Source: Sphingopyxis sp. HIX (GTDB lineage: Bacteria > Pseudomonadota > Alphaproteobacteria > Sphingomonadales > Sphingomonadaceae). From it: DNA of 64,000 nucleotides. Within the stretch, counting starts at the first letter, position 1. Every line of letters starts with the position of its first letter. The stretch lies in contig NZ_LNSB01000001.1 of the NCBI RefSeq assembly GCF_001468285.1, positions 186,001-250,000 of the forward strand. Reading direction: 5' to 3'. The notes under the pieces are model-generated. The model was not told the origin of the DNA. It was given only the letters and a program-made list of their open reading frames with translations, and did not search any database. Positions 999-16,253 of the stretch are shown one piece after another. The translations under genes were made by a program, and so were the position numbers.

Positions 999-3187
999 CT
1001 CATAAACACAGGCGGCTTGCCATCGCTGCGTTACCCTGGCTGCTGATCGCGGGCGGGCTTGTGGTCGCCTACGGCCTGTTTGCGACATTGGCGGACAATC
1101 TCGCGGACCGAAACATCCGGACGGGGTTCGGTTTCCTGTTCGACCGGGCGGGTTTCGCGATTGGCGAAACGCTGATTGCTTACGCGCCGGGCGATTCCTA
1201 TGCCGCGGCGCTGGCGGTGGGTCTTCTCAACACGCTCCTGATATCGGCGCTCGGCATCATCTTCTCGACCTTGCTCGGCCTCGCGGTCTGCATGGCGCGC
1301 CTGTCGTCCAACTGGCTGCTTGCGAGGCTCTCCGGCCTTTATATCGAGCTGGTTCGCAATATTCCGCTGCTGCTCCAGATGTTCGTCTGGTACGCCGCGC
1401 TGCTGTTCGGTCTGCCCGGACCCGGCCCGGGCGCCGTCGGACCGTTCGACCTCGATAATCGGGGATTGCACCTCCCCGCGCTCTCCTTGGCCGATCCGGG
1501 ACGGCCGGTCTTTCTCATCGCGATCGTCGCCTGTGCGATCCTGCTGGGTGCCGTGCGGCGAGGAGCCGTTCGCACGCGCACTGCGCTGGCCTTCGCCGGC
1601 ATCTCCCTGGTGCCGCTCTTGCTGTGGGGCGGGATCGATCTGCCGCGGGCGGGGCGCTTCGGAACCGTCGGCGGATTGTCGCTCTCCACGGAGTTTCTGA
1701 CGCTGGTCGCCAGCCTTTCGGTCTATGCCTCGGCCTATCTGGCCGAGATATTCCGCGGCGCGATCCTCGCCGTTCCCGCAGGGCAGAGCGAGGCCGCCAA
1801 AGCGCTCGGCCTGTCGCCCGCGCAAACAATGGGACGGATCGTGATGCCGCAAGCGCTGCGCATCGCCATACCGCCGATGACGAGCTGGCATCTCAACACG
1901 ATCAAGAACAGCTCCCTGGGGGTCGCGATCGGATATCCCGAATTTGTCTCGGTGGTCGATACCGTCATCAGTCAGACAGGGCAGGCGATCGAGGGCGTCG
2001 GCCTGATCGTCGCGACCTTCCTGCTGCTTTCGCTATCCTTGTCGTTCGTCACCGGCCTCTATGCCCGCCAGTTGGGCTGGAGCGTCGCCGGGCAGCCCGG
2101 CCGGAGCATCCAGTCGGCGCCCCTCGAACCCTTTCCGCTGCGCTCGGCGACCGCCTGGCCGTCGTGGATACGGCGCAATCTGTTCAGAGGAGGACGCCAG
2201 TCGATACTCACCATCGCGATCCTCGCCATGACCGCGGCTTTCGCCGGCAAGGGGCTCTCGTGGCTGCTGTTCGACGCGACCTTCGCCGGGGGCGCGGCCG
2301 ATTGCCGTTTGGCCAGCGGTGCTTGCTGGCCATTCCTCCGCGAAAATGCGCGGCTGATATTGTTTGGCACCTATCCCGAAGCCGAGCAGTGGCGGTCCGC
2401 AGCAGCGGCGGCCGCGCTGCTTTCATGCCTTGCCTTCTCCTTCGTCCCGCGATTCTGGCGCAGCCGCCTCGGGCTTGTCTGGCTCGGCGCAATCGCCGTG
2501 GCGGTACTTCTGCTACGAGGAGGATTCGCGGGCCTTTCCTATGTCCCGATGGAGAAGTGGAGCGGCCTGCCGGTCACATTGCTGCTCGCGAGCCTTGCGG
2601 TGGTCGGCGCTTTTCCATTGGCTATACTCCTCGCGTTCGGCCGCAGGTCGGCGCGGCGCGGCATTCGCTGGCCGAGCGTCGCCTTCATCGAGCTGGTTCG
2701 CGGAACGCCGCTGATCGGAGTGCTCTTCCTCGCTGCGGTCCTGTTCCCGCTGTTCGTGCCCTCCTATCTCTCGATCGACAGCCTGCCGCGCGTCCAGCTC
2801 GCGCTCATATTCTTCACTGCCGCCTATATGGCCGAGGTCATCCGGGGCGGCCTGCTGGCGGTTCCCGTCGGGCAAGCCGAGGCCGCGCATGCTCTTGGCC
2901 TCACCAAATGGCAGGCGCGGCGCCATATCCTGTTGCCGCAGGCGCTGAAAGTCAGCGTGCCGGGGCTGGTCAACACTTCGATCAGCGAGGTCAAGAACAC
3001 GACGCTCGTCCTCATCGTCGGCGTCTTCGATTTGTTGCAGACGACCCGCCTCTCCTACGTCGAGGCGCAATGGCGACCCTATTTCGCCGAAGCCTATCTT
3101 TTTACCGGGACAATCTTTTTCCTCCTCTGTTTCTCCCTGTCCCGGCTCAGCATGAAGATCGAACGGAAACTAAACTATGCAGGATAA
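995..3187 (+). CDS. Fused amino-acid ABC transporter permease (AapQ-AapM-like)
   Basis: A 730-residue inner-membrane protein with two complete permease halves of the His/Glu/Gln/Arg/opine family. The first half spans about residues 1-365, the second about 400-730. Each half has the ATPase-contacting EAA loop: EAAKALGLSPAQ near residue 265 and EAAHALGLTKWQ near residue 630. AapQ and AapM are normally separate proteins of about 400 and 380 residues. Here they share one frame with a short polar linker (roughly 365-395) and no internal stop, so this is a genuine fusion or a sequencing error that removed a stop. The 3' end overlaps the lyase gene by 11 bases. Confidence 0.85.
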   Translation: MTHKHRRLAIAALPWLLIAGGLVVAYGLFATLADNLADRNIRTGFGFLFDRAGFAIGETLIAYAPGDSYAAALAVGLLNTLLISALGIIFSTLLGLAVCMARLSSNWLLARLSGLYIELVRNIPLLLQMFVWYAALLFGLPGPGPGAVGPFDLDNRGLHLPALSLADPGRPVFLIAIVACAILLGAVRRGAVRTRTALAFAGISLVPLLLWGGIDLPRAGRFGTVGGLSLSTEFLTLVASLSVYASAYLAEIFRGAILAVPAGQSEAAKALGLSPAQTMGRIVMPQALRIAIPPMTSWHLNTIKNSSLGVAIGYPEFVSVVDTVISQTGQAIEGVGLIVATFLLLSLSLSFVTGLYARQLGWSVAGQPGRSIQSAPLEPFPLRSATAWPSWIRRNLFRGGRQSILTIAILAMTAAFAGKGLSWLLFDATFAGGAADCRLASGACWPFLRENARLILFGTYPEAEQWRSAAAAAALLSCLAFSFVPRFWRSRLGLVWLGAIAVAVLLLRGGFAGLSYVPMEKWSGLPVTLLLASLAVVGAFPLAILLAFGRRSARRGIRWPSVAFIELVRGTPLIGVLFLAAVLFPLFVPSYLSIDSLPRVQLALIFFTAAYMAEVIRGGLLAVPVGQAEAAHALGLTKWQARRHILLPQALKVSVPGLVNTSISEVKNTTLVLIVGVFDLLQTTRLSYVEAQWRPYFAEAYLFTGTIFFLLCFSLSRLSMKIERKLNYAG

Positions 3188-4424
3188 TCACGACAGAAAA
3201 TGGCCCGGGGAGCCGGCAAGCCCGAAAGGGCACGCCTGGCAGGACCCGACGCGTGCCGTTCACGGCGGTCCCCGCCCGCGCGATCAGCGGGGCCTCATCA
3301 ATCCGCCCGTCGATCGAGCCTCCACCATTATCTACGGCAGCGTCGAGGCCTATATGGACCGGCACCAGGGTCTCTACGATGAGGTCATCTATGGCCTGTA
3401 CGGAACGCGAACGACCTTTGCGCTCGCCGAGGCCGTCAGCGAACTCGAAGGCGGCTGCGCCACCGTCATCACCTCGTCTGGAACCAGCGCGATCGCGCTA
3501 GCCCTCACGGCTTTCGTGGCCGGGGGCGATCATCTGCTCGTTGCGGATTGCGTCTATGGGCCGACCCGCAAGTTTCTGACCGACGTTCTCGCGCGCTTCG
3601 GGGTCGAGGTGGAATATTTCCGGCCCGATATCGGAGCGGAGATTGCCGGGCTGTGCCGCAGCAACACCCGGCTCATCTACATGGAGACCCCGGGCTCGCA
3701 GACATTCGATATGATCGACGTCCCCGCGATCACGGCGGTTGCACGCAGCCGGGGCATATTGACCGCTCTCGACAACACCTGGGCGACGCCGCTTTTCTTC
3801 AAACCGTTGGCCCATGGGGTCGACATCTCGCTTGCTTCGGCAACCAAATATCTCTCGGGGCACTCCGACTGTCTGCTCGGCACGATGACCGCCGCCAGCG
3901 ATGCCGTCTACCGCCAGCTCAAGGATGCGGCGGCGCGCTGGGGCAACTGCGCGAGTCCCGACAATTGCTATCTCGTCCACCGGGGCATCAGGACGCTCGA
4001 TGCCCGCCTTGAACGCCACCAGCGTACCGCGGCGACGCTGATCGAATGGTTCGCCCAGCAACCCGAAGTGGTCGCGGTCCGCTATCCGGCCCATCCTTCC
4101 GATCCCGGCCATGCGATCTGGAAGCGGGATTTCACCGGAGCGTCCGGATTGTTCGGTGTTCAGCTCGATGGTCTTACCCCTCCGGAAACCAGCGCCTTTT
4201 TCAACGAATTCTCGCTGTTCCAGCTCGGTTCGAGTTGGGGCGGCTTCGAAAGCCTCGCGGTTCCGGCGTGGCCCGCTCCGATCCGCGATTTTCCCAATGG
4301 CGAGGCAGATGGGGCGCTGATCCGTATTCACGCCGGCCTCGAAGCGCCGCAGGATCTGATCGCCGACCTCGCCGCAGCCTTCGCGCGGGTACGGGCGATA
4401 CGCGGCCGGGGGCAGGCGTCATGA
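3177..4424 (+). CDS. metC: Cystathionine beta-lyase-like PLP enzyme (MetC family)
   Basis: A 415-residue enzyme of the Cys/Met-metabolism PLP family, the group that cleaves C-S bonds of cystathionine and related thioether amino acids. The PLP lysine is Lys224 in [16 protein letters not shown]; the phosphate-site segment [11 protein letters not shown] and LDNTWATP are also present. Length matches MetC. It sits between the permease and ATPase genes of an amino-acid importer, overlapping both (11 and 4 bases), which suggests it acts on what that importer brings in. The substrate is inferred only: cystathionine, lanthionine-like or other S-conjugates are possible, and a gamma-lyase or sulfhydrylase role is not excluded. 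Confidence 0.8.
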
Positions 4425-5173
4425 CCGATGCCTCGGGCCACGCGGCCGTCAGCTTGCGGCAGGTCGACAAATATTATGGCGCCTATCATGCCCTCCGCTC
4501 GATCGACCTCGAAATCGCCCCGCGCGAGCGGATCGTGATTTGCGGCCCTTCAGGCTCCGGCAAATCGACGCTCATTCGCTGCATGAACAGGCTCGAGGTG
4601 CCCGACTCCGGTGCCGTCCTGATCGAGGGAACCAGGATAACCGACGCGTCGCGAGAGGCCGTTGCGGCGCTCCGCGCCATTGGCATGGTTTTTCAGCAGT
4701 TCAATCTGTTCCCGCACAAGACGGTGCTGGAGAATTGCACCCTCGCGCCCGTCCTGCTCGGCGGCTTGTCTCTTCCGGAGGCGGAGGCGCGCGCCATATC
4801 CTATTTGGACAAGGTGAGGATTGGCGACCAGGCGGGCAAATATCCGGGGCAGCTCTCGGGAGGGCAGCAACAGCGGGCCGCGATAGCCCGCGCTCTGGCG
4901 ATGGAGCCCCGGATTCTTCTCTTCGACGAGCCGACATCGGCGCTCGATCCCGAGATGATCAAGGAGGTACTCGATGTGATGACGTCCCTTGCCGGCGAAG
5001 GACGGACGATGGTGTGCGTGACGCACGAAATGGGATTCGCGCGCGAGGCGGCCGATCGCATGCTTTTCATGGATCAGGGCCAGATCATCGAAGACGCAAG
5101 GCCGGCAGATTTTTTCGCCGCGCCGAAAAGCGAACGCGCACGGACCTTTCTCGAACAGATACTTTCGCATTGA
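4421..5173 (+). CDS. aapP: Amino-acid ABC transporter ATP-binding protein
   Basis: A 250-residue cytoplasmic ATPase that energises the fused permease. Walker A is GPSGSGKS at residues 42-49, the signature LSGGQQQR is near 145, and Walker [13 protein letters not shown] is near 165-176, followed by the TVTHEMGF-type switch (here CVTHEMGF). The ATG at 4421 is chosen because it overlaps the upstream stop as ATGA and gives the standard family length; the same frame is open upstream but would add non-homologous sequence from inside metC. It is the last gene of the four-gene operon. Confidence 0.92.
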
Positions 5174-5401
5174 GCGGCTCAAGTCGGTCGCGCCCCCAAG
5201 CTGTGCCGACCCACTTAATCATGTCATTTCATAAGCAAGCCGAGGGAGGGGCCCGCCGGCTCCTTGCGCGAAAAGGCTCAGGCCGGAAAAAATTTCAAAA
5301 TTGATGAGGGGTAGAGCTTTGGGGTGCGTATCTAGTAGGTATCGTGCGCCCGGAATTTACTTCATAACCAATTGATATGATTCAATAAATTCCTATTGAC
5401 C

Positions 5402-5411
5402 TGTATATACA
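5402..5411. promoter_or_regulatory. Putative HutC/GntR-type operator upstream of the TonB receptor
   Basis: TGTATATACA is a perfect 10-bp palindrome containing GTATATAC, an exact match to the HutC-subfamily core GTMTAKAC. It lies in an AT-rich part of the 285-bp gap after the ABC operon, directly after a TTGAC that could be a -35 element, and 48 bases before the receptor start. A second match lies before the GntR gene at 10415-10422. Binding is inferred from the consensus. The rest of the gap (5174-5401) shows nothing else recognisable. Confidence 0.6.
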
Positions 5412-5458
5412 TTTGATGCTCTCTGAGGGGAATCAGCCAACCATCAGGGGGTTTCGCT

Positions 5459-8164
5459 ATGATGACCAGGACAATTTTGCTCGCCAGCGCCGCAGCGGTC
5501 GCGACCTTTGCAACGCCAGCGCTCGCGCAGAGCGATGCTGCGACGCAGTCACCCGCCGCGGAGGATGCTCCGAACGGATCGGACATCGTCGTGACCGGCT
5601 CGCGCATTCGTCGCCAGGATCTCGCGGGCGTCGGCCCCGCGACCGTCGTGTCGGCCGAGCAGATCGAGAACACCGGCGTCGTCAATATCGAGACGGTGCT
5701 GCAGCGCCTTCCCGCCAACGCCGGCTTCGCAGGCAACCAGACCTCCGCCTATTGGGCGAACAATGGATATGGCACGGCGCAGGTGAACCTGCGCGGTCTC
5801 GGCATCAAGCGCACGCTTGTTCTGCTCAACGGCCGCCGCCTCGTCGCGGGCGGCACCGGCGCGAACTCCTCGCCCGATCTTAACATGATCCCGGTCGCGG
5901 CGCTCGCGCGCACCGATGTGCTCAAGGACGGCGCCTCGGCGATCTATGGCGCCGACGCGATGGCGGGCGTGGTCAACCTCGTGACCCGCACTGACTATGA
6001 AGGCCTCGGCCTCAGCGTGCGCCAAGGCATCACCGAAAAGGGCGATGGCTCGGACTTCACCGCCGACCTCCTGTGGGGCGTCCGCAACGATCGCGGCGGT
6101 TTCATGGCGGCGGTCACCTATCAGAAGACGAGCGCGGTCAATATGGCAACGCGCGCGCCTTGCTCGCTTGCCGAAACCACGCCCGGCATGCTGAGCTGCG
6201 TGAACAGCGCCTCGACGATCGGCGGCCGCGCGGTGCTGCCGAACGGCCAGCAGATCAACTTCAATCAGGTGCTGGGCGGTAACGGCAACTTCTTCGAGCC
6301 GTACAGCGCTGCCAAGCACAACTTCAACTCGAACCCGTTCCTCAACGCGGTGAGCCCGGTCGAGCGCGTGAGCACGGCGTTTTTCGCCGACTATGACATC
6401 ACTGACAATATCGAGGCGTTCGGCGAATTCCTTTACACCTTCCGCAAGTCGAATCAGATCGCGACGCCCGGAACGCTGCGCAACCTCTCGATCGCGGCGA
6501 GCAATCCCACCAATCCGACGGGGCAGAATATCGTCCTCATCCAGCGCCGCCTCGCCGAGCCCGGCCCGCGCCAATTCTTCCAGGAAACCGATACCTGGCA
6601 GGGTACGTTTGGCCTCCGCGGCAAGCTCTCTAACGATTGGGGATGGGAAATCGCGGGCGCCTTCGGCCGCAACACCGCGGTCGATGGTTCGACCAACATC
6701 GCCAATCTCGAGCGAGTGGCGAATTCCCTCGATACGACCAAGTGCAGTCTTGCTGCCGGTGCCACGATCCCCTGCGCCGACTATCTCGGGTTCGGCGACC
6801 TGACCCCGGAGGTTCTCGACTATATCCTGTTCACGTCGCGCGACCGCGGCGGCAACGAGCTTGCGACGGTCACCGCCGATATCAACGGCGATCTCTTCAA
6901 GCTGCCCGCAGGCCCCGTCTCCTTCGCGGCGGGTGTCGTCTATCGCAAGGAAAAGGGTTGGCGCGATCCCGATCCGCTGACGGTGCTCGGTATTGCCAAC
7001 ACCAACCAGCAGGATCCGATCTCCGGAACGAGCACGGCGAAGGAAGCCTATCTCGAACTGTCGGTGCCCGTTCTGGCCGACACACCCTTCTTCCAGTCGC
7101 TTACCCTCGACGGCGCGGTTCGCTACTCGAACTACGACCTGTTCGGCAGCGACTGGAACTACAAGGGGAGCGTCGACTGGGTCATCAATGACAGCTTCCG
7201 CCTGCGCGGCACCTACGGCACCGGCTTTCGCATTCCGAACGTCCCCGAATTGTTCGGCGGCGTCTCCGAGGGCAATCTGACGACCACCGACCCCTGCTCG
7301 CGCTATTCGACCAGCGGCAATGCGACACTGATCGCCAATTGTCAGGCGTCGGGCGTGCCGGCCAATTATGTTCAGCTCGGTACAACGATCCTGACAACGG
7401 TCGGCGGCAACGAGAATCTGAAACCCGAAAGCTCGACGACCTGGGCCGTCGGGACGGTGATTTCACCGAAGGGACTGGTTCCGGGACTCTCGCTCACTGC
7501 CGACTGGTTCGACATCAAGATCAAGGATGCGATCCGTGCTATTCCGGGCTCGACAAAGCTCAGCATTTGTTATGCGAGCCAGAATCTTTCGCATCCCTTC
7601 TGCGAAGATTTTACCCGCAGCCCGTTGACCGGCGAGGTTACCTTCCTCTCCGCGCAACCGATCAACACGGGCCGCGAAGAAATGAACGGCCTCGATCTGG
7701 GTCTCGTTTACAACAATGACATCGGCAGCGTGAACGTCTCGCTCGACGTCAACGTGACCTATCTCAACAAATATGTGGTCCTGCCTTTCCCCGGCGGCGC
7801 GCCGATCGACTTCGACGGCTTTATCGGCGGCGGCAATGGCGGCTATCCGAAATGGCGCGGCTATGGCGTGCTGACCGCTGAAAAGGACGGGGTCAGCGCG
7901 ACCTGGTCGACCCAGTGGATCGGCAAGGCGACCGACTTCAATGCGGCCCCCGGCGACATCGGCTACAGCACGCCGAATGTCTTCTACCACAATCTCCAGG
8001 TCGCTTTCGAAATCGACGAGAAGACCCGGTTCCAGGTCGGTGTCGACAATCTTTTCGATCGCAAGGCGCCCTATATCCAGAGCTTCACCGATGCGAACAC
8101 CGACACGATGACCTATGACCTGCTCGGACGGCGTTTCTACGTCGGCTTCCGCACCGCGTTCTGA
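5459..8164 (+). CDS. TonB-dependent outer-membrane receptor
   Basis: A 901-residue receptor that would import a ligand across the outer membrane using TonB energy. The signal peptide covers about residues 1-24, ending PALAQ. The plug domain follows (DIVVTGSRIRRQD, then VNLRGLGIKRTLVLLNGRR), and the beta barrel ends in the typical aromatic terminus FYVGFRTAF. Two ATGs lie in tandem at 5459 and 5462; a GGGGG stretch 7-12 bases upstream could serve either. It starts a transcription unit with the two PepSY genes and has a HutC-type operator in its leader. Ligand unknown; a peptide, amino-acid derivative or metal chelate fits the neighbours. Confidence 0.92.
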   Translation: MMTRTILLASAAAVATFATPALAQSDAATQSPAAEDAPNGSDIVVTGSRIRRQDLAGVGPATVVSAEQIENTGVVNIETVLQRLPANAGFAGNQTSAYWANNGYGTAQVNLRGLGIKRTLVLLNGRRLVAGGTGANSSPDLNMIPVAALARTDVLKDGASAIYGADAMAGVVNLVTRTDYEGLGLSVRQGITEKGDGSDFTADLLWGVRNDRGGFMAAVTYQKTSAVNMATRAPCSLAETTPGMLSCVNSASTIGGRAVLPNGQQINFNQVLGGNGNFFEPYSAAKHNFNSNPFLNAVSPVERVSTAFFADYDITDNIEAFGEFLYTFRKSNQIATPGTLRNLSIAASNPTNPTGQNIVLIQRRLAEPGPRQFFQETDTWQGTFGLRGKLSNDWGWEIAGAFGRNTAVDGSTNIANLERVANSLDTTKCSLAAGATIPCADYLGFGDLTPEVLDYILFTSRDRGGNELATVTADINGDLFKLPAGPVSFAAGVVYRKEKGWRDPDPLTVLGIANTNQQDPISGTSTAKEAYLELSVPVLADTPFFQSLTLDGAVRYSNYDLFGSDWNYKGSVDWVINDSFRLRGTYGTGFRIPNVPELFGGVSEGNLTTTDPCSRYSTSGNATLIANCQASGVPANYVQLGTTILTTVGGNENLKPESSTTWAVGTVISPKGLVPGLSLTADWFDIKIKDAIRAIPGSTKLSICYASQNLSHPFCEDFTRSPLTGEVTFLSAQPINTGREEMNGLDLGLVYNNDIGSVNVSLDVNVTYLNKYVVLPFPGGAPIDFDGFIGGGNGGYPKWRGYGVLTAEKDGVSATWSTQWIGKATDFNAAPGDIGYSTPNVFYHNLQVAFEIDEKTRFQVGVDNLFDRKAPYIQSFTDANTDTMTYDLLGRRFYVGFRTAF

Positions 8165-8175
8165 GGGTAATCGAT

Positions 8176-8880
8176 ATGGCGATCCGTTGGCCGCTGCTCG
8201 TCCGGCGAACGCATAAATGGCTGGCCTTGGTGGTCGGCGTCCAGGCGCTGCTCTGGACGCTGACCGGCTTCTACATGGTGGTCGTGCATATCGACACCAT
8301 CCATGGCGACCATCTCGTGCGCGCGCCGATGGTTCAGCCCTTCGACCTCGCGGGCCTCGCGCCGCCGTCGCGGATCGTTGCGGCCGCGCCCGGTGCGTCC
8401 GAGGTTCGCTTGCAGCGGTTCTTCGATCGCCCCGTCTGGCGCGCTGAAACTCCCGAAGGGGCGCGGCTGTTCGATGCCCGCTCGGGTGCGCCGCTGCCTG
8501 CGCTTACCGAGTCCCAGGTCCGCGAGCAGGCGCGGCGCATCTACACCGGCGACGGCAAGATCGTGTCGGTGCGGCTGTTGACCGAAGCGCCACAGGAAAT
8601 GCAGTCGCGCAAGCCGCCCTATTGGCAGGTCGAGTTCGAGGGCTGGAACCGCCCGACGCTCTATCTGTCGCCGACGACCGGTGAGCTTATCTCGCGCCGG
8701 CACGCATTGTGGCGCGTGTTCGACTTCGCGTGGATGCTCCACATCATGGACTATGATGAGCGGACCGACGTCAACAACCCGTTGCTCCGCGTCGCGACCT
8801 GGAGCGTCTTCGCGATGGCGATCAGCGGGGCGTGGTTGCTGATCTGGTCCTTCAAACGCCGCAAGAGGAAGCAGGCATGA
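8176..8880 (+). CDS. PepSY-type inner-membrane protein 1
   Basis: A 234-residue membrane protein of the PepSY-associated type. An N-terminal helix begins RRTHKWLALVVGVQALLW, a periplasmic central part follows, and a C-terminal helix follows WMLHIMDYDERTDVNNPL. It lies 11 bases after the receptor stop and overlaps the next gene by ATGA, so the three genes form one unit. Members of this family accompany TonB receptors for siderophores and related metal ligands and are thought to act in the inner membrane, possibly in reduction or release; the reaction is not established here. It shares two framing motifs with the next gene. Confidence 0.8.
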   Translation: MAIRWPLLVRRTHKWLALVVGVQALLWTLTGFYMVVVHIDTIHGDHLVRAPMVQPFDLAGLAPPSRIVAAAPGASEVRLQRFFDRPVWRAETPEGARLFDARSGAPLPALTESQVREQARRIYTGDGKIVSVRLLTEAPQEMQSRKPPYWQVEFEGWNRPTLYLSPTTGELISRRHALWRVFDFAWMLHIMDYDERTDVNNPLLRVATWSVFAMAISGAWLLIWSFKRRKRKQA

Positions 8881-9611
8881 AACGCATCCGACTGACGCCG
8901 CTCTTCTTCCGGCGCATCCACAAATGGGTCGGGCTGATCCTGGGTCTCCAGTTCCTGCTCTGGGCGCTCAGCGGATCGGTGATGGCGCTGCTCGACAAGG
9001 ATAAGGTCGGCGGGCACGGCGGCGGGATGTCGCATGCGCATCCACTGCCACCGGGGGAATATTTCGACGTGGCGGCCCTGCCGCGCGGCGAACCTGTCAC
9101 GGGCGTGATCCTTCGCGATCTCGGAACCCGGCCGGTCTATGAAGTGCGCTCCGCAAAAGGCGTCCGTCTCGTCGACGCGACAAGCGGCGAGCACATCCGG
9201 GTCGACGAGGCCATGGCGCGCGAAGTCGCCTCCATGATGAACGAGGCGCCGATCCGAGAGGTGAGCGTAATCGCCAAGCCGAACCTCGAATCGCGCGATC
9301 ATGAGGGGGCGATGTGGCGCGTCGATTTCGCGGACGACGAGAACAGCAGCGCCTATGTCTCGCTCGATACCGCCCGCTTTCTCGTGATGCGCGGCGATAC
9401 CTGGCGCACATGGGACTTCTTCTGGATGCTCCACAATATGGACTATATCAACCGGTCGAGCTTCAACCACCCGCTGATCATCTTCGTCGCCTTCGGTGTA
9501 CTATGGCTGTCGGGAACCGGCTTCTACCTGCTGTTCAAAAGCTTCAGCAAAGCCGACTTCCGTTGGCTGCGCCGGCGCCGCAAGCCGGTCGTGGTCACCC
9601 GCACCGGCTGA
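8877..9611 (+). CDS. PepSY-type inner-membrane protein 2
   Basis: A 244-residue paralogue of the preceding protein. Both start R(T/I)HKW followed by GVQ/GLQ and LLW, and both end WMLH(I/N)MDY with an N-x-PL turn before the last helix, so a tandem duplication is likely. This copy has a histidine-rich segment, GGHGGGMSHAHPLPPG, after the first helix, which could bind metal. The start at 8877 is chosen because it overlaps the previous stop (ATGA) and aligns with the paralogue. It ends six bases before the convergent GntR gene. Confidence 0.8.
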   Translation: MKRIRLTPLFFRRIHKWVGLILGLQFLLWALSGSVMALLDKDKVGGHGGGMSHAHPLPPGEYFDVAALPRGEPVTGVILRDLGTRPVYEVRSAKGVRLVDATSGEHIRVDEAMAREVASMMNEAPIREVSVIAKPNLESRDHEGAMWRVDFADDENSSAYVSLDTARFLVMRGDTWRTWDFFWMLHNMDYINRSSFNHPLIIFVAFGVLWLSGTGFYLLFKSFSKADFRWLRRRRKPVVVTRTG

Positions 9612-9617
9612 CCGGCC

Positions 9618-10319
9618 TCAATCGTCGATCGAAAAGGCGGCTGACAGCTCGAAGCGTGTTCCGGGGTGTGTCAGCCAGGCATGCGACACAAGGCGCGAGC
9701 GGCTCCAAGTCCGGCGCGTCATCTGGAGCACCGGTTCGCCGTCGGACAATCCCAGCATGCCGCGCATCCGCTCGTCGGGCATCGTCGAGCAAACGCGATG
9801 CTCGACCCGTTCGAGCGGTGCAATGCGCGTCAGATATTCATTTGGTGTCATCCGCGTGAAGTCGAGCGTGCCATAGTCGGGGGCGATCGACGCGAGAACG
9901 AACCTCTCTTCTATCTGTATCGGAAATTCGGCTTCGTGATGGACGATGATCGAATGGAACAATTTCGTGCCCACGGACACCTCGAGCAGCGGCGCCGTCT
10001 CTACATTGGCGCGCTCTTCGCGGTTCTGGATCACGCGGGCGCGGTACGCATGACCGCGCTCCCGGATTTCCTCGGCGATGTTGCGGATTTCAATCATCTG
10101 GCCGATCGGCTTTGGCTCTGCGATGAACGATCCGCTGCCGGCGCGCCGCACGACGACGCCCGCCGCCTGCAACTCGCGTAGAGCGCGGTTCGCGGTCATC
10201 CGCGAAACGTCGAACTGCTGAACCAGCTCCGCTTCCGACGGCACCCGGTCTCCTGGGTTGAGGCGGCCGTCCCGCACTGCATCGCAAATGCTTTGCTTGA
10301 TGGCGACGTACCGGGGCAT
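9618..10319 (-). CDS. GntR-family transcriptional regulator, HutC subfamily
   Basis: A 233-residue repressor-type protein. The N-terminal winged helix-turn-helix (about residues 5-70) has PSEAELVQQFDVSRMTANRALREL, shown here as PSEAELVQQF then VSRMTANRALREL; the C-terminal UTRA ligand domain starts near residue 95. The ATG at 10319 is preferred over the far ATG at 10424 because GGAG stands upstream and the family starts about there. HutC itself binds urocanate, but no hut genes are nearby, so the effector is unknown. A GTMTAKAC site lies in its own leader and another before the TonB receptor, which points to control of both. Confidence 0.85.
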   Translation of the reverse strand: MPRYVAIKQSICDAVRDGRLNPGDRVPSEAELVQQFDVSRMTANRALRELQAAGVVVRRAGSGSFIAEPKPIGQMIEIRNIAEEIRERGHAYRARVIQNREERANVETAPLLEVSVGTKLFHSIIVHHEAEFPIQIEERFVLASIAPDYGTLDFTRMTPNEYLTRIAPLERVEHRVCSTMPDERMRGMLGLSDGEPVLQMTRRTWSRSRLVSHAWLTHPGTRFELSAAFSIDD

Positions 10320-10414
10320 CACCTCGCCTCCCGTCTCTTCGGGCGGCCGGGTTGCCTCGCGGGGCCGAGATTCTGAAGCGGGGGATTTTCGAGTGAGCGA
10401 AGGGTTCATAAGTC

Positions 10415-10422
10415 GTCTATAC
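10415..10422. promoter_or_regulatory. Putative HutC/GntR operator before the regulator gene
   Basis: GTCTATAC matches the HutC-subfamily core GTMTAKAC exactly and is flanked by the imperfect dyad AGTCGTCTATACAACT. It lies about 95 bases upstream of the chosen start of the GntR gene, where an autoregulatory site is expected. This is a consensus match only; eight-base matches can occur by chance, but the paired occurrence with 5402-5411 adds weight. Confidence 0.5.
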
Positions 10423-10515
10423 AACTTCGCCGACTCCCAGCTAGGTAAAACAGAATGTCACGCGCCGATTGCGCAAAAACTTGCGCGCCAAGCCACTCTC
10501 GGTGAGAGCGGGAGA

Positions 10516-11286
10516 CTAATTGTCTCGATTCCGCTTGCGATCGGGAAAGTAGCGTGCCGGCGTTACACCGGTCAGTTCGCGAAACGAGCGGATAAAGTTA
10601 CTCGCCGTCCCAAAACCGAGTTCGAGCGCGATCGATGTGACCGCCTCGCCCTGCGCCAGCCGCAAGAGCGCGGCCTTGAGCCGAATCTGGTTCCGAAACG
10701 CGGTAAAGCCTGTTCCGGTATCGCGTTGGAACAGCCGCGCAAGGCTTCGGCTCGAGATATGGAGTTGCTCCGACCAGGCTTCGAGGCTCCTCCGGTCGCC
10801 GGGATTGCGATCGAGTGCCGCGGCGATTTGCGCGATACGGGGCGCTGTGACCGACGGGATCGTCAGGGCAGGCGATATTTTCAACGCCATCTCGTCGGCG
10901 AAGAGGAAGGCCAGATGCCGCTGACGCGCCCCTGCGCCCGTGCCTGCGGCCGCAAAAATGATCTCGCGCATCAAGGGGCTCACGGAAGTTAGCCCGGCTT
11001 CTTTCGGCAGCCTCCGTAGAATGCTGCCGAAACAATATATGCTGTACATCTCGAAACCGCCCGAGGTCTCGACGCGATGCTCATGGTCCGCGGGCAGCCA
11101 AACGCCCTGCTGGGGCGGAACGACCCATTGTCCCTCACGGGTGTGCAATATCATGACCCCCCTGCTCGGGTATATCAGTTGGACTACTGGGTGCCGGTGC
11201 CACTCCCCGATGCTTCGTGCATGGAATGTGGCTCGTTCCACCTCGATCGAGACCGAAGGAGCATTCTTGTCGGATAGTGAATTCAT
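10516..11286 (-). CDS. AraC-family transcriptional regulator with cupin sensor
   Basis: A 256-residue regulator. The N-terminal half is a cupin-like sensor (EWHRHPVVQLIYPSRGVM, then GVWLPADHEHRVE). The C-terminal half holds the double helix-turn-helix: RSLARLFQRDTGTGF and LRLAQGEAVTSIALELGFG, ending in SFRELTGVTPARYF. It is divergent from the methyltransferase gene, with a 71-bp shared promoter region that holds a 7-bp inverted repeat. The target is unknown; its location in the island suggests a local role. Confidence 0.88.
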   Translation of the reverse strand: MNSLSDKNAPSVSIEVERATFHARSIGEWHRHPVVQLIYPSRGVMILHTREGQWVVPPQQGVWLPADHEHRVETSGGFEMYSIYCFGSILRRLPKEAGLTSVSPLMREIIFAAAGTGAGARQRHLAFLFADEMALKISPALTIPSVTAPRIAQIAAALDRNPGDRRSLEAWSEQLHISSRSLARLFQRDTGTGFTAFRNQIRLKAALLRLAQGEAVTSIALELGFGTASNFIRSFRELTGVTPARYFPDRKRNRDN

Positions 11287-11314
11287 TATGTCCTGATATC
11301 ATCTATCGGACATA
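11287..11314. promoter_or_regulatory. Inverted repeat in the araC-type/methyltransferase divergent promoter
   Basis: TATGTCC at 11287-11293 and GGACATA at 11308-11314 form a perfect 7-bp inverted repeat around TGATATCA, itself a palindrome. It begins at the base next to the AraC-type start codon and lies in the only space between two divergent genes, so it could be an operator or a leader hairpin. No protein can be assigned to it from sequence. Confidence 0.4.
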
Positions 11315-11357
11315 GTCTCCAACGCTCAGCATCGTCTTCGCAATCGACGGAGACCTT

Positions 11358-11831
11358 ATGCGCCTACCCATGATGATCCAGTCCACGAAGCGTTCGTCCG
11401 CCGCCCGTCCCCATGGGGAATATAAGCGCCAATTGCTCGACGAAATTGTCGCTCTCAAGCCGGCAACCTTACTCGACGTCGGATGCGGCACGGGCGATCT
11501 TCTCGTCGCAGCGCGCGAAGCGGGCATCGCCCGCACTGTCGGGATCGAGCCGGAAACCCAAGCTTGCGTCCGCGCGCGATCCCGGGGTTTGGACGTCATT
11601 TCATGTCGTGCCGAAGCGCTGCCATTCGAAGACCGCAGTTTCGACGTCGTGACGCTCGATTATGTCGCACATCATACGGAGAATTTGCCGAGAGCATTGC
11701 GCGAGGCGTCGCGCGTCGCGCGCTGCGCCGTGCTCATCCTGGATTGCTGGTTCGACGACATCCGCTGGTTCGGCGGCGAGCGCGATGAGCGCACCCTCGG
11801 CCTGCTCAGCCGCGACGACAGCATGCCGTGA
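11358..11831 (+). CDS. Short class I SAM-dependent methyltransferase
   Basis: A 157-residue protein with a Rossmann methyltransferase core. Motif I is LLDVGCGTGDLL (about residues 38-49), followed by the acidic GIEPE after strand 2 and SFDVVTLDYVAHH as motif IV. It belongs to the Methyltransf_11 type. It is short for the family (usually 200-270 residues) and stops soon after the core strands, just before a cytochrome b561 remnant on the other strand. It may be C-terminally truncated by the rearrangement that formed this junction. Substrate unknown. Confidence 0.7.
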   Translation: MRLPMMIQSTKRSSAARPHGEYKRQLLDEIVALKPATLLDVGCGTGDLLVAAREAGIARTVGIEPETQACVRARSRGLDVISCRAEALPFEDRSFDVVTLDYVAHHTENLPRALREASRVARCAVLILDCWFDDIRWFGGERDERTLGLLSRDDSMP

Positions 11832-11843
11832 CGCCGACGCGTG

Positions 11844-12029
11844 TCAGCCGCGCGGATTGCGAAACAGCGGCAGCATCCGGTGGAGCACTTCGTCCTTGTC
11901 GAAAAAATGATGCTTGAGCGCGCCGAGAACATGCAGCGCGAGCACGACGTAAATGGCCTTCACCATCAGCTTGTGTATGTCGCCGAGCTCTTCGGCGAGA
12001 TCCTCGTTCATAGCCAATTCCTGCTTCTC
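11844..12029 (-). pseudogene. C-terminal remnant of a cytochrome b561
   Basis: On the minus strand an open segment of about 62 codons reads GDIHKLMVKAIYVVLALHVL followed by GALKHHFFDKDEVLHRMLP. This matches the last transmembrane helix and tail of bacterial cytochrome b561, including the haem-ligand region LHVLGALKHHF. An in-frame stop at 12030-12032 cuts it off, and the three preceding helices (over 100 residues) are not found upstream. The first in-frame ATG is at 12009-12011. It is probably dead DNA left by the event that placed the unknown gene and integrase here. Confidence 0.75.
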
Positions 12030-12038
12030 TCAACGCTG

Positions 12039-12869
12039 ATGCTCGTCGCGACCTCACTCGCCGACCGGCAAAAAATATCTCTGGAGAAGCTTTTTCGGGA
12101 AGAATCACTCCTTGAGCGCGTCAGCGCCGCAGTCGCGAGTTCGAACAGCCGCATCCGGGCGATGAACAGTCCAGCGTCGCGACTGACGGATTGGAACGAG
12201 CTATCGCTCGAGCGGTTTCCGCCGAAGGCCGACCGGCCGGTAATTGTAAGGGTGCCAGAGGCTGATCCCGAAGAAGAAACAATCAGCGAGCGATACGCGA
12301 CTGGCGATCACCGCAGCGTCGAAGTGCGCTCGATCTTGGACATTCCGCAATGGGAGCAGGCCCGCTGGATCGGCGTGATGCTCGGTCTGCAGCATGATCT
12401 CCCGATCGTCGGATTGCACTTTGAGGATCGCGAGGCGGGACGCCAAATTTTCGAGCGTTGGCGCGAACGGTTCGGCGCACGAGATGCCAAAGGGGCTATC
12501 CACATCGCGATCTTGCGCGAACTACCTGGTCGGCCCCCGTCCCACTATGCGGTGCTATTGATGGCGGGAACTGAGCCAGGGGATTTCGCTGGTACGCTGG
12601 TGAGCATGCCGAGCCGCCTCAAGCTGCTCGAACCTGCCGCCGACACGAATCTGAGGTTCTTTCTCGATAACTATCCCGCGGGTGGCTCGTTCATTCTGGT
12701 TCCCACTTACGTGAAGGAGAATGGCGAGCCCGATCTGATGATGGACCTTGCCATACTAAAGCATGACCTCTCGATCCGGAGAGTTGCCGATATCGGCAAG
12801 TCCGATTTGGAAATCATCGGAGTGCAGCTTCTCGAGCAAATGGAGGCGCGCGACGGTTCGCCGCCTTGA
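12039..12869 (+). CDS. Protein of unknown function beside the integrase
   Basis: A protein of up to 276 residues with no recognised domain. The frame stays open further upstream, but that part is antisense to the cytochrome b561 remnant, so the ATG at 12039 is chosen; the ATG at 12162 (MNSPASRLTDW) is an alternative, and neither has a clear ribosome site. The most structured part reads WIGVMLGLQHDLPIVGLHFE, then IFERWRERFG. Two pieces, a dehydrogenase-like hydrophobic strand and a charged helix, suggest a compact soluble domain. It converges on the integrase gene with no spacing and shares a terminator hairpin with it, so it is likely island cargo. Confidence 0.55.
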   Translation: MLVATSLADRQKISLEKLFREESLLERVSAAVASSNSRIRAMNSPASRLTDWNELSLERFPPKADRPVIVRVPEADPEEETISERYATGDHRSVEVRSILDIPQWEQARWIGVMLGLQHDLPIVGLHFEDREAGRQIFERWRERFGARDAKGAIHIAILRELPGRPPSHYAVLLMAGTEPGDFAGTLVSMPSRLKLLEPAADTNLRFFLDNYPAGGSFILVPTYVKENGEPDLMMDLAILKHDLSIRRVADIGKSDLEIIGVQLLEQMEARDGSPP

Positions 12870-12881
12870 TCAGGCGGCGAA
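12857..12881. terminator. Bidirectional hairpin spanning two convergent stop codons
   Basis: TTCGCCGCCT (12857-12866) pairs perfectly with AGGCGGCGAA (12872-12881) around the loop TGATC. The stop of the unknown gene (12867-12869) and the integrase stop (12870-12872) lie in the loop and its edge, so both genes end inside the same 10-bp stem. No strong T-tract follows on either side. Confidence 0.6.
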
Positions 12882-14153
12882 CTTCATCTTTGCCGCCTTC
12901 CGCACGCCAGTCTCAAGATGTTTTGCGATCTCGTCCGAAGTGCGGCTGACCGCCAGCTTCACGGCTTCATCGATATGAACATAGTCCTGCGTCACACTTT
13001 GCGACGCGTGGCCTAGCATCGCGCGGATCGTGAGCTCGGAGAAGCCGAGTTCGCCCGCCATGCTGCCGAAGGTGTGGCGCAGCGTATGCGGCGTTACGCC
13101 CTCAATGCCGGCCGAGCGGCATAGTCGGGCCAAGCAGTCGCTGACGGCGGTAAACGGGCCTTCGCCATTCGACGCGGGAAAGACGTAGGGGCAGCCGGCT
13201 ATTTCGGGTTGAGCGACGACGATCTTGATCGCCTCGGGTCCGATCGCCCGAAATTGTGCATCGCTCTTCGTGTCGGGGAACGCGACGTAGCCGCCCATGG
13301 GGTTAACCCACTGCCGCTGCAGCGCCTGCGCCTCTTCGCGCCGATAGCCGGTCAGAAGGAGCGTCCTGACAATTGCGAGCGCAACGGGGTTCTCGGAACC
13401 CAGTTCGGCCCGGCCGATCGCCCGACCCAGCAGCTCGATCTCGGCGATGCTGAGACGCCGGGTCCTTTTCTTGGTCGCGAGCTTCTTCGCGCCCTTCGTA
13501 GGATGTTCCGCAATCAGTCCCTTGTGCTTTGCATGGCCTAGGATGGCCTGGAGGGTGCCGAGGCTCCTCCCGGCAACGCCGGCACCGCCCGTCGGGCGGC
13601 CGCCGCGCCCGCCCGAAGGAGGCTTTCGGGTCTGACCGGTTGCAATGTCATTTTGCATTGCCTCGACGTCGGCGATCGTCAGCTTCCGCACGAGGCGTTT
13701 GCCCATCAGCGGGATGATATGCGTCAGGATGCGGCTCTCATCCATGTTGAGCGAGGTGTCCTTGATCGGGCGGTTCTTCCGTCCAAGAATGCGGCCGGCT
13801 CGCGCTTCGACGAGATACCATTCGCACATCTCGGCGACATTGAGATCCTTCCGGACCCGGCGCGACTCCTCTGCGGGATCTTCGCCAGAGGCGACCTTGC
13901 CCAACTGAATCTTCGCGAGCTCGCGGGCTTGCTCGACCGTCATCACGCCGAAGCGCCCGATCTTCACTCGCCGAACCCGGCCTTCCTCATTCATATACTG
14001 GATGACGAAGGTTTTCGTCCCGGTTGCGCCGACACGGACACCGAAACCTTTGATCTCGGTATCCCAAAGAAATGCCTGGCCTGTCGCTGGTGCAGCCAGC
14101 GCATCGACCGTCCGCTTATTGAGCTTCGCAAGCGCCACAAGTTCCTCCATCAT
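12870..14153 (-). CDS. Tyrosine-type site-specific integrase
   Basis: A 427-residue integrase of the phage/island type. The N-terminal arm-binding domain covers about residues 1-95 (FLWDTEIKGFGVRVGATGTK), then comes a core-binding domain, and the catalytic domain lies in the C-terminal half. The catalytic residues visible are Arg in LLTGYRREEA, His-x-x-Arg in TPHTLRHTFG, the His of MLGHAS and the Tyr of TQDYVHID. All look intact. Two adjacent ATGs can start it. Its 5' end faces a tRNA-Gly fragment 163 bases away, the usual placement beside an attachment site. Confidence 0.92.
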   Translation of the reverse strand: MMEELVALAKLNKRTVDALAAPATGQAFLWDTEIKGFGVRVGATGTKTFVIQYMNEEGRVRRVKIGRFGVMTVEQARELAKIQLGKVASGEDPAEESRRVRKDLNVAEMCEWYLVEARAGRILGRKNRPIKDTSLNMDESRILTHIIPLMGKRLVRKLTIADVEAMQNDIATGQTRKPPSGGRGGRPTGGAGVAGRSLGTLQAILGHAKHKGLIAEHPTKGAKKLATKKRTRRLSIAEIELLGRAIGRAELGSENPVALAIVRTLLLTGYRREEAQALQRQWVNPMGGYVAFPDTKSDAQFRAIGPEAIKIVVAQPEIAGCPYVFPASNGEGPFTAVSDCLARLCRSAGIEGVTPHTLRHTFGSMAGELGFSELTIRAMLGHASQSVTQDYVHIDEAVKLAVSRTSDEIAKHLETGVRKAAKMKFAA

Positions 14154-14316
14154 ATTACGCGAGGGTGGCCGATTCGAAAAGTAATGAGGACGTAATAGAA
14201 AATCACCGCTTCGCAGGGTAGGGCTAGGATAAATTATCGTAGGCCGAAGTCAACAAATGCTTGGATTTTCGTACCTTGGCGTAGAAAAAGAAGCTCTGGG
14301 GTATTTGCAGTAATTT

Positions 14317-14362
14317 CTTGCCAAGGTTGGGGTCGAGGGTTCGAATCCCTTCGCCCGCTCCA
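14317..14362 (+). other. 3' fragment of tRNA-Gly(GCC), putative att site
   Basis: The segment runs from the anticodon arm CTTGCCAAG (anticodon GCC at 14320-14322) through the T arm GGGTTCGAATCCC to acceptor strand CGCCCGC, U73 and CCA. CGCCCGC would pair with GCGGGCG, the usual tRNA-Gly 5' end, but no such 5' half, D arm or acceptor strand precedes it: the upstream sequence is AT-rich and unrelated. It is therefore a half tRNA, as left by integrases that cross over in the anticodon loop. A short T run follows. Confidence 0.85.
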
Positions 14363-14447
14363 GTTTTTCCAAAGAAAACCGAATCTTGTGACGCGCCGGT
14401 CGGCACGGCCCGCCGGCTTTTGTGATCGGCGGCGGCCCGCAACGACA

Positions 14448-14475
14448 AAGGGCCGACCCTTTCGGGACGGCCCTT
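14448..14475 (-). terminator. Rho-independent terminator after the 23-aa ORF
   Basis: AAGGGCCG (14448-14455) and CGGCCCTT (14468-14475) form an 8-bp stem with a 12-base loop. Read on the minus strand the stem ends in CCCTTTGTCG, a short T run, 24 bases after the stop of the small ORF at 14499-14570. Confidence 0.65.
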
Positions 14476-14498
14476 CCATTGTCTTGGCGTTTGCGGCC

Positions 14499-14570
14499 TT
14501 AGCCGAGCGCGGCCTCCACGCGGACGGTCGGGCTCGATTCTGCCGCGTGCGGCATGGGACAATGAGACAT
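14499..14570 (-). CDS. 23-residue small protein of unknown function
   Basis: A 24-codon ORF encoding MSHCPMPHAAESSPTVRVEA plus ALG. A perfect AGGAGG (complement at 14578-14583) stands seven bases before the ATG, and a clear terminator follows the stop, so it has the full layout of an expressed gene despite its size. It has no signal peptide or membrane segment; one Cys and two His lie near the N-terminus. It is not an attenuator of the usual kind, since it has no run of one amino acid. No function can be given. Confidence 0.6.
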   Translation of the reverse strand: MSHCPMPHAAESSPTVRVEAALG

Positions 14571-14649
14571 TCGACCACCTCCTTTCGCTTGTTGACGATA
14601 GGAGGAATATGGGCGCCCCGCCCGCGGCTTGCAAGGGGGGGGCGCCGCC

Positions 14650-16101
14650 TCAGAACAGCCCTGGCAGCTCACGCTGCGCCGCGCTCGGCGTCGGGGTCGC
14701 GAGCATCTCGCCTTCGGCGGCGAGCGCTGGCGCGATACGCTTGGCGGCGCTGGTGATCTGCGCCCCGCAGCTGCGCCCGGCGAGGAAGTCGAGCGCGGCG
14801 CGCAGCGACGGCTCGTTCGGGTCGCCGAGCTGGAACGATAGGCTGTCGCCCGCCGCGCAGCTGTTGGCGATCTTGGGCGCGAGGCCGTCATAATAGTCGC
14901 TCTGTCCCGCCGCATTGCCCGTCGCGAAGGCGACGACGCGCATGCGGTCGTCACATTCGGCCTTGTCGAGCGCGATCTGGCCGACGGGCTTGCCGAAGGT
15001 GTCGCTGCCGACGAGCGTCATGTTGGTGCCGAGATAGGGCAGCATGCCGTTGATCACGAGCTCGCTCGCCGAGGCGGTCGATCCGGTGGCGATGAAGGCG
15101 ATGCGCGTCGGGGCGATCGATTCGGGCTGGCTGGTGAAGAAATGCCGGTCGTTCTCGGCGGCTTTCGACGGGCGGAAATCGGTGCGCGAAAAAAGTTCGC
15201 TCGACGTCCGGTTGCGGCCGAGCAGATCGCCCATCAGTTCGGCGGTGCTGACGAGGCCGCCGCCATTGTAGCGGAAGTCGATGACGATATCGGTCACCCC
15301 CTGCGCGCGGAAATTGGCGAAGGCGGCGCGCAGCTGCGGGTTCGCCGAGCTGATGAAGGTGCGCAGGTTGAGGTAGCCGTAGCTCTTCCCGCCCTCGGTG
15401 ATGATCTTGGCGCCATAGCGGTCCGACACCGGGTCGATGTCGTAATTGGCCTTGGTCACGGTGACGTCGCGCGTGCTCCCGCCGTCGACGATGCGCAGGA
15501 TGCGCGTGACGCCCGGATCGTCGGGCCCGAGCGCGCTGATGATGCCGTTGACGCCGCTCGTCGCGACGATGTCGGCGACCGGGCGGATGTTCGCGGCGCT
15601 GGTCCCGATGCCGGTAATCTGCGTGCCGCGGTCGATCCCTGCGGCCAGCGCCGGTGCGCCTTCATAGGCTTCGGCGATCACCACGCGCTGCGTGCCGCTA
15701 TTATAGGTCAGCCGCACGCCGAGCCCCGCGCTCGACCCGCTCGAGAAAAAGGCATTCTCCTCGGCGATCGAGGTGATGTAGGTGAAGAAGCGATCCTTTC
15801 GCGCGAGGCGCGCGGGCGCGACGAGCGCGTCGATATAGGATTGCACGTCGCTATGCGCCGCCTTGTTGGCCCCCGTCGCGACGTCGGCGGGGAACAGATA
15901 CCATTCGTCGATCACCGCCTTCGCAAAATCCTGCCGCGCCGACAGGCCGCAGTTCGCCGTGGGGGTCGGGGTGGGCGTCGGTGTCGGCGCTACCACCACC
16001 GGGCCGCCGCCGCCTCCACCGCCACCCCCGCCGCCGCAGCCGGCGAGGACGAACGCCGACATCGTCAGCAGGGCGACGGATTTTCGCAAGTTACGGCGCA
16101 T
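14650..16101 (-). CDS. S41-family peptidase lipoprotein (C-terminal processing type)
   Basis: A 483-residue exported serine protease. The start at 16101 gives MRRNLRKSVALLTMSAFVLA followed by the lipobox cysteine, so the protein is likely lipid-anchored. After the Cys come eleven glycines and a Thr-Pro repeat as a flexible linker. A PDZ-like part (SSGSSAGLGVRLTY, IDRGTQITGIG) precedes the S41 core (GYLNLRTF, DIVIDFRYNGGG). The catalytic Ser is in TGSTASASELVING. The frame is open far upstream, but the lipoprotein signal fixes the start. It likely degrades or processes envelope proteins. Confidence 0.88.
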   Translation of the reverse strand: MRRNLRKSVALLTMSAFVLAGCGGGGGGGGGGGPVVVAPTPTPTPTPTANCGLSARQDFAKAVIDEWYLFPADVATGANKAAHSDVQSYIDALVAPARLARKDRFFTYITSIAEENAFFSSGSSAGLGVRLTYNSGTQRVVIAEAYEGAPALAAGIDRGTQITGIGTSAANIRPVADIVATSGVNGIISALGPDDPGVTRILRIVDGGSTRDVTVTKANYDIDPVSDRYGAKIITEGGKSYGYLNLRTFISSANPQLRAAFANFRAQGVTDIVIDFRYNGGGLVSTAELMGDLLGRNRTSSELFSRTDFRPSKAAENDRHFFTSQPESIAPTRIAFIATGSTASASELVINGMLPYLGTNMTLVGSDTFGKPVGQIALDKAECDDRMRVVAFATGNAAGQSDYYDGLAPKIANSCAAGDSLSFQLGDPNEPSLRAALDFLAGRSCGAQITSAAKRIAPALAAEGEMLATPTPSAAQRELPGLF

Positions 16102-16253
16102 GGATTTTCCCCGGTTGTTCGGACGCATCGCGGCGACCGGCACCGTGTCTGCGACCCGCCACATGTATCGACGATGAAAAGATGCGGCAATGATCTGGAT
16201 CATAGCGATGCGACGGACGGAATGGCGATGTTGGGGTGGGGAGCAGCCCCTAT

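Follow-up and report, generated by a model that had tools for sequence, protein, structure and literature searches.

In the available passages of three accounts, the systems closest to the one described here share a tRNA gene as insertion site. Among the tRNA islands collected with Islander, 2083 of 3919 have an anticodon-centred crossover (PMC4383910). ICEMlSymR7A inserts in a phe-tRNA gene, and FseA, a RovC-related protein with DUF2285, activates rdfS (PMC10359603). Mesorhizobium ICEs other than the symbiosis ICEs carry a DUF2840 gene between rdfS and traF, and tRNA-Gly is among the ICE sites (PMC8627217). Within Sphingopyxis, the accessible part of one account notes putative ICEs in S. granuli and describes the 25-kb heavy-metal region 1 of strain TFA, which is 95% identical to four Sphingopyxis genomes, LC363 included (PMC4741004).

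Here we analyse a 64,000-bp stretch of the Sphingopyxis sp. HIX genome (hereafter the window; G000:C1:186001-250000), together with a set of 80 Sphingopyxis genomes, one per species and HIX included, which are designated by G codes. The window holds half of a tRNA-Gly(GCC) gene beside an integrase gene. We conclude with high confidence that this half is the attR of a 72.4-kb island inserted in the anticodon-loop region of tRNA-Gly(GCC), and that this island arose by deletions from a 148-kb ICE that has recently spread among Sphingopyxis species.

The attachment sites, the integrase and the insertion site

A sequence-only reading of the window had described a 46-bp 3' half of tRNA-Gly(GCC), lacking its 5' half, next to an intact tyrosine integrase, and the sequence reads exactly so. 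The half (window 14317..14362, plus strand) extends from the anticodon stem to the CCA end; no 5' half precedes position 14317, no whole tRNA was found anywhere in the window by ARAGORN, and Rfam gave no match at gathering score anywhere in the window. That reading also expected the intact gene within about 100 kb to the left of base 1. Indeed, ARAGORN calls a complete tRNA-Gly(GCC) at C1:127909-127983, 58 kb to the left on the same contig and the same (plus) strand, and no other tRNA in C1:86001-206000. Bases 30-75 of this gene are identical to window 14317-14362 over 46 bp. The identity thus starts within the anticodon stem, at tRNA base 30, and the identical run reaches 51 bp when the five bases after CCA are counted (C1:127938-127988 on the side of the intact copy). 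A 121-bp query around the half gave 4 matches in the HIX genome at E <= 0.001: the half, the intact gene, and two minor ones of 29-30 bp at 93%, located at a tRNA-Leu and a tRNA-Gly(CCC). The intact gene and the half are 72,379 bp apart. The half therefore does mark the edge of an island, as had been proposed, but the extent then given to it (1-14316) was too short: at 72.4 kb the island is five times longer, and the window contains its last 14.3 kb. Its G+C content is 63.8%, versus 67.3% in the 42 kb of left flank.

The integrase (427 aa; window 12870..14153, minus strand) lies 163 bp from the half and reads away from it. Its frame is open from end to end, the Pfam models Arm-DNA-bind_3 and Phage_integrase match above their cut-offs, and the motifs TGYRREE, HTLRHTF and GHASQSVTQDY are present; we take R271, H356, R359, H382 and Y391 to be the catalytic residues. 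An integrase at least 95% identical to it occurs in 18 of the 80 genomes, HIX included (identity rounds to 100% in 8), and the 1284-bp gene is base-for-base identical in 7 other species. In 17 of these 18 copies, 163-164 bp separate the start of the gene from a tRNA-Gly half; in the exception, G076, the contig stops ~350 bp past the integrase match and the half was not found there. The association extends to more distant integrases: of those at 60-75% identity, 17 or more out of 33 lie beside a half, as do at least 3 of 4 at 50-55% and at least 4 of 23 at 40% or below. The copy in G062 has an orientation that does not fit its own tRNA-Gly simply. A second integrase, 38% identical, is located past the right end of the window (G000:C1:280859-282064).

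Two CGTAATA words near the right end of the island are putative arm-type integrase sites: GCGTAATA at window 14153..14160 (minus strand) and ACGTAATA at 14190..14197 (plus strand). Partner words follow the intact tRNA closely on its right side, at C1:128022, 128061 and 128072, and five of the seven CGTAATA words of the 72-kb island fall within 250 bp of its ends, three on the left and two on the right. As a control, the 41.9-kb left flank contains 2 such words and the 5.6-kb right flank contains 1. In G009 the left end has diverged, yet all three left words are retained, as would be expected for integrase arm sites.

With the ends fixed by the sequence, we infer that the adjacent integrase would insert the element at the anticodon-loop region of tRNA-Gly(GCC). 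The identical 3' half carried by the element would replace that of the tRNA, leaving the gene whole and displacing the old half to the far end.

The site itself was sought in the 80 genomes with a 1551-bp left flank that includes the tRNA and a 1789-bp right flank that includes an S41 peptidase gene (window 14650..16104, minus strand). In 31 of the 80 genomes, the two flank matches could be placed by hand on a single contig with order and orientation preserved, at distances ranging from 0.08 kb (G034) to 283 kb (G006), with a median of 52 kb. In the other 49, the flank matches were on different contigs, rearranged, very far apart, or without a usable match; left out of the pairs were G012 (same contig and strand, ~1.8 Mb apart, right match at 68%) and eight genomes with opposite or reversed match order. 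The shortest distance corresponds to an empty site. In G034, ~80 bp lie between the tRNA match and the peptidase-gene match, and the tRNA is followed by GTTTTTCCA, which matches the HIX right flank, and soon afterward by the peptidase gene. This one genome provides the known empty site, and its tRNA-peptidase spacer is shorter than that of HIX. The two sides of the locus are thus joined in a relative, as the sequence-only reading had anticipated, and the arrangement that would have spoken against it, the cargo at this place without the integrase, was not seen among the part of the 80 genomes read at the site. The locus therefore comprises an intact tRNA, a 3' fragment in the same orientation, an integrase between the two, and an empty site in one relative (G034), as in a tRNA-targeted island.

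The tRNA also separates two patterns of similarity. To its right, aligned segments are 100% identical to those of HIX in G039, G077, G037, G022, G028 and G050, and 92-100% identical in G031; upstream of it, the same seven genomes are 30-96% identical. Between the half and the peptidase gene, window 14437-14599 (minus strand) holds a small ORF whose product starts with MSHCP and, after it, a terminator-like hairpin. Many Sphingopyxis genomes have this segment at 74-86% conservation, in most cases apart from the S41 peptidase gene; in G033 and G041 it stays beside that gene.

The full element and the two deletions

The genome of another Sphingopyxis species (G039), with its chromosome in one contig, carries a 148,382-bp element at the same tRNA site. 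HIX C1:127984-197760 differs from it by 6 mismatches in 69,777 positions, with no gap, and from G077 by 4 mismatches over 69,777 bp (megablast). G039 then has a further 76 kb before its right end, and its integrase end is identical to that of HIX over the final 2,354 bp, which run to CCA (G039 444301-446654). Within the 3.2 kb of G039 chromosome just left of the tRNA, two pieces align, at 79% (2,553 bp) and 88% (548 bp). Since ~70 kb are near-identical between species whose chromosomes next to the site differ by ~12-21%, transfer was very recent.

Removing two stretches of 39,401 and 36,602 bp from the G039 element gives 148,382 - 39,401 - 36,602 = 72,379, which is exactly the repeat distance in HIX. 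Thus, the HIX island is a shortened form. Between the two deletions lies a scar (window 11761..12008) equal to G039 C1:407449-407700 when shared junction letters are counted; because the 2-bp word CA is common to both sides of each junction, the edges can be placed only to within 2 bp. By comparison with G039, the first junction cuts a methyltransferase gene (window 11358..11760, plus strand; 248 aa in G039), and the end of a 145-aa gene (G039 407084-407521) follows in frame at 11761..11831 (plus strand). Next come the C-terminal end of a cytochrome b561 (11844..12008, minus strand; 185 aa in G039) and then, at 12009..12869 (plus strand), the last 286 codons and the stop of a 1068-aa protein that is whole in G039 (C1:441955-445161) and directly adjoins the integrase in the full element. 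This protein had no Pfam, NCBIfam or PADLOC match. The comparison identifies the HIX island as a deletion derivative of a conjugative element, which the sequence-only reading had missed.

We also considered that a small mobile cassette with the integrase might end at position 12009, an idea based on 2.36 kb to its right that are near-identical in many species while the left side seemingly differs. It was rejected because the 12 other genomes examined there share the longer gene and only the HIX copy is cut. In five genomes (G009, G030, G073, G076 and G062), the match to G039 is not regained until the integrase or its immediate surroundings.

Part of the genes in the 76 kb of G039 were scanned. 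They include DUF736, RovC_DNA-bd (PF10074), an 80-aa HTH_17 protein, DUF2840, an S26 peptidase and a lytic transglycosylase, followed in our list by the transfer genes: a DUF3363 relaxase, TraG, a T2SSE-type ATPase, TrbC, VirB3, VirB4, TrbL, VirB8, CagX and TrbI. A ParB-like protein, a TonB receptor and an ImpB-type polymerase are also present, and two further proteins weakly match models of defence nucleases and AAA proteins. TraG scores above the cut-off of NCBIfam NF010450. The relaxase is assigned by DUF3363 (288 bits), its score against PF03432 Relaxase being 23.8 bits versus a cut-off of 24.6 and that against the RlxS model NF041267 being 527.6 bits versus 850. The RovC_DNA-bd and HTH_17 matches are above their cut-offs, and neither protein has an NCBIfam match; we take PF10074 to be the former DUF2285. 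From its HTH_17 match and the gene order, the 80-aa protein is probably RdfS-like. The VirD4 and VirB4 matches of G039 fall within the element. The G039 element thus combines a relaxase (by DUF3363), a coupling protein, a type IV secretion system, an integrase and attachment sites, the components of an ICE. The HIX island lacks the first three: among its 59 predicted proteins, no Pfam match to a relaxase, a coupling protein or type IV secretion genes was found, and the VirD4 and VirB4 matches of the HIX genome sit on contigs other than that of the island, together on C24 and on C2.

Two later deletions in the HIX genome would therefore account for the loss of these 76 kb, including the relaxase, the coupling protein, the type IV secretion genes and the putative RdfS-like excision factor, and would have left the cargo, both attachment sites and the integrase. 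Because of this loss, the HIX island should be unable to transfer itself and should excise poorly, except where another element in the cell provides what it lacks.

It is useful to weigh this history against three others. First, the deletions could be an assembly artefact, with the strain truly carrying the full ICE. Both junctions rest on one draft assembly of 90 contigs, and the assemblies of G022, G028 and G031 break at one common position in the region. However, the HIX contig is continuous through both junctions, and these lie away from the shared break. Moreover, when the HIX genome was searched with 15 kb of the missing region (G039 415001-430000), the matches found were only 66-87% identical, chiefly on C24 and C2, and none was near-identical. 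We therefore regard an artefact as very improbable. Second, a 72-kb non-conjugative island could be ancestral, the 76-kb transfer region having been gained later in G039 and others. The short form does possess the integrase and the two ends, and further short forms exist in G077, G062, G052 and G053. However, the four predicted genes cut at the HIX junctions are longer and apparently whole in G039, the 1068-aa gene is continuous over the position of the HIX junction in diverged copies (85-91%) in G014, G031 and G048, and a ~250-bp piece from the middle of the 76 kb persists in the HIX island. Such a late gain is thus very improbable. Finally, we can set aside almost entirely the proposal that there is no island and that the half tRNA arose by chance or is an unrelated fragment, given the 51-bp identity and its orientation, the constant spacing beside near-identical integrases (17 of 18), the identical left ends and the empty site; on sequence grounds, a chance origin is excluded for a 46-bp exact repeat in the same orientation that encloses an integrase.

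Cargo and carriers of the element

From the tRNA to the half, 59 genes were predicted in the HIX island with a simple codon model, and all 59 were scanned with Pfam. Metal-resistance genes account for much of the island beyond the ABC, TonB and PepSY genes: two P-type ATPases (one of them copper-type by NCBIfam), a multicopper oxidase, CopB, CopC, CopD and CusF, with two cation-efflux proteins, three MerR regulators, an FTR1-cytochrome protein and TonB receptors alongside. Of four RND pump permeases, one is CusA/CzcA by an NCBIfam match above cut-off, and another (C1:145786-148965) is nearer to multidrug models, though below their cut-offs. The cargo within the window (1..11760) consists of an ABC amino-acid transporter, a cystathionine beta-lyase-like PLP enzyme (TIGR01324, above cut-off), a TonB receptor, two PepSY proteins, GntR and AraC regulators, and the cut methyltransferase.

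The ABC, TonB and PepSY genes had been interpreted as island cargo, and their distribution bears this out. All or nearly all of window 1-11763 recurs at 96-100% DNA identity in G039, G022, G077, G037, G062 (1-11366), G006 and G076, with matches over the whole length at 100%, as rounded, in the first three. In contrast, the main matches to the 1.5-kb left chromosomal flank have 81-86% identity in G039, G022, G077, G037 and G006. More broadly, the 1-11763 query has a match at E <= 1e-100 in 55 of the 80 genomes; many of these matches cover the TonB-PepSY-GntR part only, at 66-87%, and some represent a second copy. Bases 1 to ~10316 are found at 88-97% in 22 genomes, including G031, G009 and G014, and several of these blocks have an integrase of another clade within ~7 kb (as in G069, G038, G015 and G033), so other elements carry this cargo as well. 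In G033, the closest relative by flank (94%), bases 1-10316 are located ~420 kb from the site, and another integrase is 3 kb away from them. In the 22 genomes, the ABC/lyase/TonB/PepSY/GntR block stops within a few bases of one position (10314-10317), as if it were an independent travelling cargo unit.

A plasmid origin of the cargo was also considered and rejected. A megablast search with window 1-14300 returned 66 plasmid records, none with 80% coverage or more and none with 90% identity or more. The best match was Sphingopyxis indica plasmid NZ_CP076395.1 (37% coverage at 84.5%), and 10 of the next listed plasmids matched only in the TonB-PepSY-GntR part, at 79-81%. Extending the query to the half tRNA gave 96 records, 26 of them at >=99%; we took these 26 as matches to the tRNA half, since they were gone once the half was left out. 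In that search the S. indica plasmid matched in TonB-PepSY-GntR cargo, integrase and tRNA-Gly half, as if such an element also resided on a plasmid.

VirD4 and VirB4 were sought in 15 genomes, HIX included, and placed by contig and position relative to the tRNA, the halves, the cargo and the integrase. They lie inside the element in seven (G039, G006, G022, G028, G031, G009 and G014). In five others (HIX, G077, G062, G052 and G053), no VirD4 or VirB4 was found between the retained pieces on the integrase contig, and the breakpoints relative to G039 differ among these five. G052 has 8.4 kb of unmatched DNA in place of the transfer region, and G062 keeps small pieces of that region. As for the remaining three, G050 has VirD4 and VirB4 on a contig not tied to the element, G037 has VirD4 at the edge of the contig bearing the left end, and G030 was assigned to neither group.

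Several carriers have features of their own. The G006 element is the second of a tandem pair, flanked by two tRNA-Gly halves, and is 99.97-99.99% identical over the parts compared, its first 22 kb and last 36 kb. G062 has 30.5 kb in common with HIX at 99.99%, with an IS-like insert of ~1.27 kb (G062 C1:3854425-3855691); a 4-bp overlap at HIX C1:166908-166911 resembles a target duplication. The contigs of G022, G028 and G031 all start at position C1:435503 of the G039 element, a shared break that is probably an assembly fault at a G+C-rich hairpin, and contig C12 of G028 has mirrored, fold-back-like matches (~142 kb).

Significance and comparison with described systems

The presence of one element in several species has a direct consequence, in that resistance to copper and other metals moves between Sphingopyxis species as one block. 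One carrier, strain H115, was isolated from a drinking-water system simulator, according to the available part of its description (PMC4816621). The interest of this element lies in the completeness of its record and in the repeated absence of transfer genes, rather than in a new mechanism. Since the full form, several shortened forms and the empty site are all known, the loss of transfer genes and the possible rescue of stranded copies are directly testable.

We tentatively raise a wider reading, which may well prove too broad. The anticodon loop of tRNA-Gly(GCC) may be a genus-wide Sphingopyxis landing hub for stacked elements of related integrases (34-100% identical), at which one ICE would repeatedly lose its transfer block by separate deletions while keeping the integrase, the attachment sites and the metal cargo, the stranded copies perhaps being cross-mobilised by other systems in the cell. 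If so, copies would become stranded again and again, perhaps not irreversibly; in HIX both C24 and C2 hold VirD4 and VirB4 matches.

The closest described relatives of the full element are ICEs of the ICEMlSymR7A type, with RlxS, RdfS, TraG and trb genes. They share with G039 a single stretch that contains DUF736, RovC_DNA-bd, HTH_17, DUF2840, a TraF-like S26 peptidase, a DUF3363 relaxase, TraG and trb/virB genes. Unlike these ICEs, the Sphingopyxis element has its integrase at the end distal to the intact tRNA and carries metal-resistance cargo, and the HIX copy is without the transfer block. ICEclc-like elements of Pseudomonas also target tRNA-Gly, the same tRNA isotype; they occur in a different host class and have their integrase beside the intact tRNA. 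The order rdfS-DUF2840-traF reported for non-symbiosis Mesorhizobium ICEs is also that of the G039 element, with the probable RdfS-like protein in first place, as far as the available part of that account goes (PMC8627217). ICEMlSymR7A, in the corresponding part of its own account, occupies a phe-tRNA gene (PMC10359603), unlike the Sphingopyxis element, which occupies tRNA-Gly(GCC). Within the genus, heavy-metal region 1 of S. granuli TFA is common to LC363, a carrier of the Sphingopyxis element; the accessible part of its account gives no element, tRNA site or integrase, and the two are likened by description only (PMC4741004).

A description of the Sphingopyxis element was not found in the freely available literature searched. 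Its kind, an ICE at a tRNA gene with a remnant, is already known. Overall, the HIX locus resembles the islands of the Islander type, which likewise have an intact tRNA, a downstream 3' fragment in the same orientation, an internal integrase and a length of 2-200 kb, and from these, as the available part of their account presents them, it does not differ in principle (PMC4383910).
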